Position numbers and translations under genes: made by a program. Below, piece by piece: positions 10,782 through 51,335 of a stretch of DNA of 64,000 bases. Positions within the stretch are counted from its first letter, which is position 1. Each line of letters opens with the position of its first letter. The DNA comes from Noviherbaspirillum saxi (GTDB lineage: Bacteria > Pseudomonadota > Gammaproteobacteria > Burkholderiales > Burkholderiaceae_D): the NCBI RefSeq assembly GCF_003591035.1, contig NZ_QYUO01000001.1, forward strand, positions 3,038,001 to 3,102,000, read 5' to 3'. The notes under the pieces are model-generated. The model was not told the DNA's origin, did no database searches, and worked only from the letters and a program-made list of their open reading frames with translations.

Positions 10782-10838
10782 CTAAAACGATAAAGCGAAG
10801 GAGCGGCGGAAGAGTGGTGCGTGTTTCCGGTTGCTTCC

Positions 10839-10930
10839 CTTCGCTGGCATTATCCAGATCAGGTTCAAGGGTATTTCTCACCCGGCGTGCGCTTGATTCA
10901 ACAATTTCAAGCGGGCCAGGACCCCTAGCA
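10839..10930 (-). promoter_or_regulatory. TPP riboswitch (THI element)
   Basis: On the minus strand the region reads from AGGGGTCC through the conserved GGGTGAGAAATACCC block to CCTTGAACCTGATCTGG and ATAATGCCAGCG, the diagnostic THI-box sequences (pyrimidine-sensor CUGAGA-like helix and the ACCUGAUCUGG/UAAUNCCAGCG pyrophosphate-binding part). It ends about 70 bp before the thiC start, the usual place for TPP-dependent repression of thiC expression. Confidence 0.95.
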
Positions 10931-10956
10931 TTGGTCATGTGGCATGACTTCGGCGA

Positions 10957-18619: not shown

Positions 18620-18779
18620 TAGAGCAGTTTCACCCTGACTGTACCGCCGATGCCGGACGCTTTGCCCGCGGCACGGCGTTGCGGTTCCTTGCCATGGCTC
18701 GCCATGTCGCGTCGCCGCGCCTTGTTCCACGGGCAAATCGCCTCGGCCTCGACTGGCAAGTCAGGGTGAAACTGCTCTA
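18620..18779. mobile_element. MITE-like fold-back element, copy 1 (160 bp)
   Basis: The element begins TAGAGCAGTTTCACCCTGAC and ends with the exact complement; the perfect terminal inverted repeats are 21 bp and have TA at both outer ends. The interior is itself an imperfect palindrome (for example GCTTTGCCCGCGG against GATTTGCCCGTGG), so the whole unit can fold back. It differs from the copy at 51011-51170 at only three positions. It lies between purH and ruvC and encodes nothing. TA ends suggest mobilisation by an IS630/mariner-type transposase (inference). Confidence 0.85.
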
Positions 18780-37589: not shown

Positions 37590-37610
37590 ATCGATATTGA
37601 GCAGAATATG

Positions 37611-37641
37611 AAAAAAAGCCCGAAACAAATGTTTCGGGCTT
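37611..37641 (-). terminator. Terminator of the candidate sRNA
   Basis: AAGCCCGAAAC (37616-37626) pairs perfectly with GTTTCGGGCTT (37631-37641) over ACAAAT-type loop bases; on the minus strand a run of seven T follows. No protein gene on the minus strand ends upstream of it, which is what pointed to an RNA gene. Confidence 0.85.
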
Positions 37642-37712
37642 AATCCACACCAAAGGAGGAGGTGGAGGAGACAATCGATCGGCCGCAGGGTAAATATATC
37701 TTAACGACCAGC
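37611..37712 (-). ncRNA. Candidate small RNA with an anti-Shine-Dalgarno loop
   Basis: A free-standing transcription unit with no gene: promoter at 37719-37747, then about 100 nt lacking any ATG, ending in an intrinsic terminator. In the middle (37645-37665 on the minus strand) CCAC and GTGG can pair to present a loop containing TCCTCCTTT, complementary to Shine-Dalgarno sequences, as in several known trans-acting sRNAs with exposed UCCUCC loops. The end points are predicted; no sequence family was recognised. Confidence 0.55.
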
Positions 37713-50028: not shown

Positions 50029-51000
50029 TCACACGGCTTTTTTCGCTGCCTTGCCCGACTTGCGCGGTCGTCCGGCAACCTCGCCTCGTTCGACCAGATA
50101 TTCCCAAAGCCGCGACACGATCGGCTTGCCCGGGCGCTGAGACGAAGGTCGTTCACGGTAGAGGCGAATCTCCATGCTGAGTTCCCAGTCAGCTTGTCCA
50201 GCATCGGCGCGCGCGAGCTGTTTTTGCTTCACTTCGCGCGGCACTGCCGACTCGGGCAGAAAAGCGATGCCATGGCCTTCGAGCGCCATCATCTTCAAAC
50301 CTTCCGCCATATCGGTTTCGTAGCGCTTTTCCAGATGCAGCGGCCGCTTGGCATCGGCGAGTATCAGGTCGACCATGCGGCCAAGATAAGCATTGCTGGT
50401 ATAGGACAGAAACGGTAGCGGCGCTTTTGCACTGCCTGGCAACAGCAATTCGGGCACACCTGCTTTGTTGCAACGGGCGTAAGCGCGCAATGCTTCATTG
50501 CCGAGCGTAAGCATGTCATAGCGGCTGGCATCGAGCTGGACCGGCTGACGCGGGTGGTGATAACACAGCAGCAGATCGCAGCCGCCTTCCACCATGGTCA
50601 ACACCGCATCGTGTACGTTGAGGGCGATCAGGCGCGAGTTCAGCGTGCCAAATCCATCTTTCAGCTCCGTCATCCATTTCGGCATGAAGGTCAGCGACAA
50701 GGTGTGTGGCACCGCAAAATCGACTGTAGTGTGTGCTGTTGGGCGTTTTCCGCGCATTAGCGCACGCGCGCTATTGATCTGACCGAGCATTTCCAGCGCC
50801 TGCTCGTAAAACACTTCGCCCGCCGGGGTCAGTCGCGTCGGATAAGAAGTGCGGTCAATCAGGTCGGCGCCCAGCCATGCTTCCAGCGATTGAATGCGAC
50901 GCGAGAACGCTGGCTGCGTCACATGGCGCAACTCAGCCGAGCGGCTGAAGCTGCGTGTTTCCGCCAACGAAATGAAATCTTCCAGCCATTTGGTTTCCAT
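50029..51000 (-). CDS. LysR family transcriptional regulator (HypT-like)
   Basis: A 323-residue LysR-type regulator. The N terminus WLEDFISLAETRSFSRSAEL with VTQPAFSRRIQSLEAWLGADL (winged helix-turn-helix, residues 1-60) closely resembles the hypochlorite-responsive regulator HypT/YjiE; the effector domain follows, with a basic tail RKSGKAAKKAV. The effector is not predictable from sequence. No Shine-Dalgarno is visible: only 10 bp separate its ATG from a MITE-like element. It lies upstream of gdhA on the same strand. Confidence 0.88.
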   Translation of the reverse strand: METKWLEDFISLAETRSFSRSAELRHVTQPAFSRRIQSLEAWLGADLIDRTSYPTRLTPAGEVFYEQALEMLGQINSARALMRGKRPTAHTTVDFAVPHTLSLTFMPKWMTELKDGFGTLNSRLIALNVHDAVLTMVEGGCDLLLCYHHPRQPVQLDASRYDMLTLGNEALRAYARCNKAGVPELLLPGSAKAPLPFLSYTSNAYLGRMVDLILADAKRPLHLEKRYETDMAEGLKMMALEGHGIAFLPESAVPREVKQKQLARADAGQADWELSMEIRLYRERPSSQRPGKPIVSRLWEYLVERGEVAGRPRKSGKAAKKAV

Positions 51001-51010
51001 GGCGCTATGT

Positions 51011-51170
51011 TAGAGCAGTTTCACCCTGACTGTGCCGCCGATGCCGGACGCTTTGCCCGCGGCACGGCGTTGCGGCTCCTTGCCATGGCTCGCCATGTCG
51101 CGTCGCCGCGCCTTGTTCCACGAGCAAATCGCCTCGGCCTCGACTGGCAAGTCAGGGTGAAACTGCTCTA
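51011..51170. mobile_element. MITE-like fold-back element, copy 2 (160 bp)
   Basis: Same length and ends as the copy at 18620-18779, in the same orientation, with three single-base differences (in GTGCCGCC, GCGGCTCC and CCACGAGC). It starts 10 bp upstream of the LysR start codon and its right TA is shared with the next element. Confidence 0.85.
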
Positions 51171-51335
51171 GGAGTCTGCGCGGCAGAAGGCGTCGAAGCG
51201 AAATGGGTGGGAAAAGATCCCAGTTTGATCCCGCTTTCGAGGACTGTAGCCGTAGCTACAGCCGGAGAAACGGGGTCGAAGTGGGACTTTTCTCCGCCCA
51301 TTGCAGCCGACGCATTTCTGCCGCGCAGACTCCTA
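51169..51335. mobile_element. Second fold-back element with TA ends (167 bp)
   Basis: It begins TAGGAGTCTGCGCGGCAGAA and ends with the exact complement; inward from these 20-bp terminal repeats the arms keep pairing imperfectly (for example AAAAGATCCCAG against AAAAGTCCCAC) to a CTGTAGCCGTAGCTACAG centre, so the entire unit is one long palindrome. Its sequence is unrelated to the 160-bp element. No second copy was noticed in this window. Confidence 0.75.

Follow-up and report, generated by a model that had tools for sequence, protein, structure and literature searches.

The window analysed here, a stretch of 64,000 nucleotides from the genome of Noviherbaspirillum saxi, contains two copies of a 160-bp repeat, copy 1 lying between ruvC and purH and copy 2 next to a LysR-type gene (Table 1). 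A sequence-only reading of this DNA had described the repeat as an intergenic miniature inverted-repeat transposable element (MITE) with perfect 21-bp inverted ends, a palindromic interior, unique flanks and no coding capacity, and this description was borne out. The two copies differ at 3 of 160 positions (24, 66 and 113), their 21-bp ends are perfect inverted repeats, and both are intergenic with respect to the predicted genes. Folded as single-stranded DNA, copy 1 reaches -52.8 kcal/mol (z = -7.3), a value that none of 200 shuffled sequences equalled. The 300-bp flanks of the two copies align no better than shuffled flanks, and the pair is therefore not a segmental duplication. One frame stays open through copy 2, with nothing to suggest a gene; a peptide-coding function was considered and rejected, the differences between copies following base pairing.

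Table 1. Features of the window (positions counted from its first nucleotide).
Feature	Positions	Strand	Remarks
TPP riboswitch	10819-10936	-	Rfam match
MITE copy 1, 160 bp, TA...TA	18620..18779	+	between ruvC and purH
Left terminal inverted repeat of copy 1, TA included	18620..18640	+
Conserved hairpin core of copy 1	18671..18727	+	zone defined by conservation; recurs in other elements
Right terminal inverted repeat of copy 1, TA included	18759..18779	-	runs on into a TTGCCA-type sequence, as do the right ends of the IS630 elements
Betaproteobacteria toxic sRNA family	37610-37673	-	Rfam match
MITE copy 2	51011..51170	+	10 bases from the start of the LysR-type gene (50029-51000, -)
Left terminal inverted repeat of copy 2	51011..51031	+
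Conserved hairpin core of copy 2	51062..51118	+	positions as in copy 1
Right terminal inverted repeat of copy 2	51150..51170	-
Second hairpin element, unrelated to the MITE	51171..51333	.	abuts copy 2, terminal TA in common

Copy number and distribution

The number of copies proved far larger than the two first reported. The N. saxi genome comprises three contigs and 6.5 Mb; compared with plasmid-borne copies, its 16S rRNA reaches no more than 93.6% identity, with Cupriavidus, Burkholderia and Caballeronia as the best matches. A search of this genome with the 160-bp sequence identified at least 40 places, dispersed over all three contigs at sites unrelated to one another; the count is a minimum, as 40 of 70 candidates were scored. 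Both ends could be read in 35 of the 38 own copies examined; the loci left out of the target-site and alignment counts were L039 and L040 (a fragment or the core only) and the decayed L035-L037. With the three decayed copies excluded, the 21-bp terminal inverted repeats are perfect in 13 of 35 copies and carry one to three mismatches in the other 22. Copy length ranges from 160 to 182 bp in 34 of 35 copies and is 191 bp in one, with two main classes of 160-161 bp (20/35) and 174-176 bp (12/35), the longer of which carries a G+C-rich central insertion of about 15 bp. No two of the 35 aligned copies are identical and the closest pairs share about 98% of their bases, so that current activity is not to be claimed: of the recent mobility suggested at the outset, mobility is upheld by the unrelated sites and by the empty sites described below, and "recent" has to be softened.

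The same search extended to relatives (genomes are designated here by G numbers and loci by L numbers) again returned many copies. Including N. saxi, 10 of the 15 genomes of the genus gave a match at E up to 0.001. Among the matches listed, full-length copies were found outside N. saxi in G001, G007, G008 and G010, and partial matches, mostly to the centre, in G004, G012 and G013; the 40 copies from relatives used below were chosen from these genus matches. Of 145 family genomes, two contained a strict pattern combining end and centre, and these two belong to the genus. The MITE family is not strictly confined to the genus, since a looser relative, a 160-bp element with the same core and TAGAGCG-like ends (L261), sits in a genome of another genus of the family (G029). 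An exact scan of GTDB contigs for the 21-bp end, in which records near the N. saxi genome may be left out, found three metagenome contigs (one Polaromonas, two Burkholderiales); one has a degenerate end pair, two stop within or near the element, and their interiors are unlike that of the window element. Plasmid and phage collections searched with the 160-bp element yielded no match, and four lone ends in the N. saxi genome (L041-L044) had no second end within stretches of 7 kb. No description of this MITE family was found in the open-licence papers searched.

Target site and empty sites

The MITE copies occupy a TA in an oriented context. When every copy is read in the orientation of the window copies, a pyrimidine precedes the left TA in 33 of 35 own copies (T in 25, C in 8) and in all 40 copies from relatives, and a G follows the right TA in 34 of 35 and 38 of 40, respectively. 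One position further on, C is found in 20 of 35 own copies and 20 of 40 copies from relatives. The target can thus be written Y-TA-G, with a partial extension to Y-TA-G-C.

Rather than being held at the same sites by all relatives, copies are absent from the orthologous places in relatives, and empty sites with a single TA were recovered. Two matches spanning the junction in the other genome were found among those listed for 18 sites. The site filled in G008 (L148) is empty in G001, where the sequence is 95% identical across the junction and contains one TA (...GTTAT-TA-GCAG...); conversely, the site filled in G001 (L169) is empty in G008, again with one TA (...CAAC-TA-GCC...). At the position of copy 1, a gap of 427 bp separates ruvC and purH in the window, whereas the gap between their matches measures 34-61 bp in 11 of 14 relatives, too little to accommodate the element; in the other three it is 238 to 1,205 bp long and filled with other sequence. 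One of these three, G010, has the 15-base word TGATTCTAGCGAATC between ruvC and purH, which reproduces the two flanks of copy 1 joined through a single TA. This third empty site rests on those 15 bases, because the remaining stretch aligns no better than shuffled sequence (score of 54 versus at most 61 in shuffles).

An IS630 group with matching ends

Genes matching Pfam DDE_3, the IS630-type domain, occur in 9 of the 15 genomes of the genus. Examination of 30 DDE_3 loci, and of further loci from a protein search, revealed IS630 elements of 1,057-1,059 bp in G008, G010 and G004 whose ends begin with TAGAGC. Compared with the right end of the window element, their right ends are identical at 23 of 26 bases in G008 (TAGAGCATTTTCACGTTGACTTGCCA), 22 of 26 in G010 (TAGAGCATTTTCACGTTGACTGGCCA) and 24 of 26 in G004 (TAGAGCGGTTTCAGCCTGACTTGCCA). 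The likeness between IS and MITE is limited to the ends, over about 26 bp, and the agreement is lower for some MITE subfamilies, with 16-18 of 26 bases in L028. G003 and G004 contain a second IS630 group, which shares the initial TAGAGC and diverges further in. The transposase is encoded in two overlapping frames, both of which NCBIfam assigns to IS630 transposase, the first with 46.6 bits, below the cut-off of 100, and the second with 144.3 bits, above the cut-off; we infer that a frameshift joins the two.

In the eight full IS copies that were read (a fifth G004 copy was left out), the base before TA is a pyrimidine in 8 of 8 and the base after it is G in 8 of 8. At the G-side end, the window element and the IS copies of G008 and G004 alike carry TTGCCA. 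With Y-TA-G and the G-side position of TTGCCA common to both, the ends, the target and the polarity of MITE and IS agree.

The search for an IS630 element with matching ends found it in relatives, and no intact one turned up in the N. saxi genome: none of the 3 of 19 own DDE_3 matches checked for their ends fits, and an end scan of the genome allowing up to 2 mismatches gave no further IS-sized pair outside the MITE copies. The close IS relative in this genome (contig 2, 1164342-1164925) is 67% identical and frame-broken, its right end has decayed to TAGGGCGCTTTGAGCCTGACTTGCCA and its left end is not recognisable. As this decayed relative is the only one seen there, the MITE family is probably stranded in N. 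saxi, unless another transposase serves it.

Insertions on stop codons

A considerable share of the own copies, 11 of 38, is placed precisely at a neighbouring gene's stop codon and supplies its TAG, a count obtained with a simple home-made gene caller that became 10 once the caller was retrained on more sequence. The proteins concerned look complete: in the six that were scanned, the domain model was matched to within 6 positions of its end. At the corresponding loci of relatives, 29 of 30 have an in-frame stop exactly at the occupied position (the position was extrapolated by 1 or 13 bases in 3 of the 29, and by 31 bases in the exception, at a sixth site). These 29 loci cover 5 of the 11 stop-codon sites, and none of them reads TAGAGC there. 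Their stops are TGA in 20, TAG in 6 and TAA in 3; since TGA, the stop of 20 of the 29, holds no TA, we infer that a TAA or TAG stop was present in the N. saxi lineage at insertion.

As a background, stop codons were counted among the unoccupied non-coding or stop sites of 464 kb of the N. saxi genome, where they make up 72 of 712 Y-TA-R, 50 of 476 Y-TA-G and 22 of 194 Y-TA-G-C sites; within the window the figure is 12 of 126 Y-TA-R sites. Against the 464-kb background, 11 of 38 represents an excess of about 2.6- to 2.9-fold, with Fisher P values of 0.0016 (Y-TA-R), 0.0025 (Y-TA-G) and 0.0075 (Y-TA-G-C), all calculated with 11 copies and for a test that was chosen after the pattern had been seen. 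Counter-selection inside genes, acting together with a TA-containing target, could by itself account for these positions and would leave no special preference for stop codons, a proposition that we consider evenly poised. It draws on the inherent overlap of Y-TA-R with TAA and TAG, where an insertion is harmless to the protein, as well as on the post hoc nature of the test and the sensitivity of the count to the gene caller; what speaks against it is the distance between 11 of 38 copies and the roughly 10% of unoccupied targets, in the window and in the 464 kb alike. The excess may partly reflect selection.

Folding and co-variation of the arms

The structure count was based on 47 of 75 usable copies, chosen mainly for being without the insertion of about 15 bp and for having well-matched ends, a choice that favours a high paired share. 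Alignment left 46 distinct copies, which come from five genomes and in which 96.9% of cells are paired versus 91.3% in shuffles. Both sides have changed in 19 of 53 pairs, and cells with both sides changed number 151 versus 46.8 in shuffles and 4-26 in slid registers. On a tree, joint paired changes on one branch amount to 26 versus 3.3 expected, and are outnumbered by one-sided changes (56 and 60). Further pair types occur at chance level (40 versus 39.4; 228 of 500 shuffles as high). This co-variation reaches the interior stem, beyond the ends. Wobble cells count 160 as G-U on the plus strand, a figure favoured by the structure prediction, and 115 as A-C for the minus strand; the minus-strand wobbles being not much rarer, the counts lean towards pairing at the DNA level. 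Arms that change together could result from arm-to-arm copying in replication as well as from selection for the folded form.

A conserved core shared with other elements

Among the 46 distinct copies, mean pairwise identity is 90% in the core zone, 82% at the ends and 74% in the arms between them. The core, about 52 bp long, is found well beyond the MITE family: a 60-base probe from G013 matched at least 37 of 145 family genomes and 14 of 44 genera at E up to 0.001, with up to six candidates scored per genome and the weakest matches close to the E limit. Outer inverted repeats were looked for at 28 core loci; 20 of these have long ends that match clearly by eye, two have partial ones and six have no trusted ends. 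About 18 of the elements with clear ends span 272-282 bp (ca. 275 bp), the outliers being L256 (236 bp), L255 (349 bp) and L261 (160 bp). Their ends include TAGAGCCTGTTATGAAC, TAGGGCCTGTT and TAGAGGGTGTTATG and are unlike those of the window element past the first bases, and the larger elements seem by eye to contain two hairpins. The N. saxi genome itself holds core elements with other ends, of about 277-282 bp (L040, at 1487-1562, L250 and L252).

In an alignment of 35 cores (37 were prepared, L034 and L255 were dropped), GTTGC, CTCCTTGCC and GCGTCGCCGCGCCT vary little and unpaired bases are conserved across genera. The outer stem varies freely and is mostly paired, three of its pairs being broken in 9 or 10 of the 35. 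Rfam gave no match at E up to 1 for six sources, plasmid and phage collections searched with the 60-nt core gave none either, and no IS-sized element with TAGAGCCTGTTATGAAC ends was found in five genomes. Judged by the ends alone, which differ from those of the window element, the elements of ca. 275 bp would be served by another transposase.

One possible reading, advanced as a tentative suggestion, is that the core is a functional module of many otherwise unrelated miniature elements of Burkholderiales, with different ends and probably different transposases. In the same tentative picture, the core would be a recognition site, or a small structured nucleic acid that aids survival or spread, around which ends are exchanged, and in its IS630-type form such an element would also insert at stop codons, leaving the protein unaltered.

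Proposed origin and alternative explanations

Taken together, the copies, the matching IS group, the oriented target and the empty sites support the initial suggestion of an IS630/mariner-mobilised MITE with a TA target. Based on sequence comparisons, the 160-bp repeat is very probably a non-autonomous MITE that would be moved in trans by the transposase of an IS630 subgroup whose ends begin with TAGAGC. In the proposed mechanism, this transposase would bind the TAGAGC... inverted ends, excise the MITE and paste it into the TA of Y-TA-G(C), duplicating the TA, the MITE end with TTGCCA beside the inverted repeat facing the G side of the target. Since a G follows the TA at either end of the MITE, a TAA or TAG stop that received the insertion in its TA would be replaced by an in-frame TAG, so that the gene would keep its length. 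The repeat is a new family of IS630-type MITE, whose oriented target, stop-codon insertions and shared core go beyond what an ordinary MITE needs; these features and the co-variation of the stem are additions to the sequence-only reading.

Other origins were weighed against this one. So long as two copies were known, a segmental duplication or an assembly artefact could be envisaged, and it is refuted by unrelated flanks, by at least 40 places at unrelated sites on all three contigs and by the orthologous empty sites. A REP/REPIN-type repeat moved by a REP-associated tyrosine transposase (RAYT) would likewise be palindromic, mostly intergenic and present in many copies per genome. REPs have GTAG as a feature of paired short hairpins, whereas the element described here is a single 160-bp hairpin with a duplicated TA and with ends and a target that match IS630, which makes a REP/REPIN origin most improbable.

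The repeat could also owe its retention chiefly to a role as structured RNA or as a regulatory hairpin (terminator or mRNA stabiliser), its mobility being historical, and this we consider unlikely, if less remote than a REP/REPIN origin. The co-variation of the stem, in cells as in joint changes, the unpaired core bases conserved across genera and the copies at the 3' ends of genes are all in its favour. Yet further pair types do not exceed chance, one-sided changes outnumber joint ones, the wobble counts fit pairing at the DNA level, the Rfam search was negative, and the element is absent from orthologous places in relatives. Mobilisation of the repeat as an IS630-type MITE is thus the preferred explanation.

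Relation to known repeats

Several bacterial repeats resemble the MITE in part. RUP, with IS630-Spn1, is likewise a short intergenic repeat with IS630-like inverted ends and a TA target, according to the available text of the sources (PMC2229807, PMC3049150); compared by that description, it differs in being 107 bp long and AT-rich and in having 9 contiguous inverted-repeat pairs, whereas the MITE has 21-bp ends, forms one hairpin over its whole length and contains a core common to other elements. With the IS630 family, relatives of Tc1/mariner, the MITE has the TA duplication in common, but it encodes no transposase, and its target is the oriented Y-TA-G and not the symmetric CTAG; a preference of IS630 for the TA in CTAG is stated in the title of a paper cited in PMC2170065. 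Correia/NEMIS and ERIC, as portrayed in the available part of PMC2229807, share terminal TA, inverted repeats and long stem-loops with the MITE and belong to other hosts, the likeness being one of description.

The BRE repeats are described in the available text of PMC3110155 as multi-copy, usually intergenic and G+C-rich elements of about 90 bp with conserved parts of 40-60 bp, found in Betaproteobacteria including Bordetella, all of which recalls the core; they differ in that some loci carry them in tandem, and the description given there does not include TA-flanked ends. Set side by side by description, the core may be the published BRE repeat.

According to a 2007 review, matching IS ends had not been sought or found for bacterial repeats, with the exception of RUP (PMC2229807). 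In the family described here, a bacterial MITE is accompanied by a matching IS group, its target is oriented and its empty sites are clean; its stop-codon insertions illustrate a simple and harmless entry into compact genomes. The shared core makes it possible to test whether non-autonomous elements carry a common functional module that is independent of the transposase.

Neighbouring elements

Other small elements were observed next to MITE and IS copies. The hairpin that abuts copy 2 in the window is near-perfect over 163 bp, with GGAGTCTGCGCGGCAGAA ends and CTA/TAG flanks, and among the matches listed is one other copy, 99% identical, on contig 3 (8931-9093). Tandem insertion at copy 2 would be easy, because the ends of both elements re-create Y-TA-G. 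In G008 (L072:869-2026), a full IS630 element adjoins a stretch of about 100 bp with TAGAGCGC inverted ends, the two having a TA in common. The left flank of a MITE copy in G001 (L162) includes a repeat of about 80 bp that occurs at some 25 or more further places in that genome, at least four of the listed places abutting other MITE copies.
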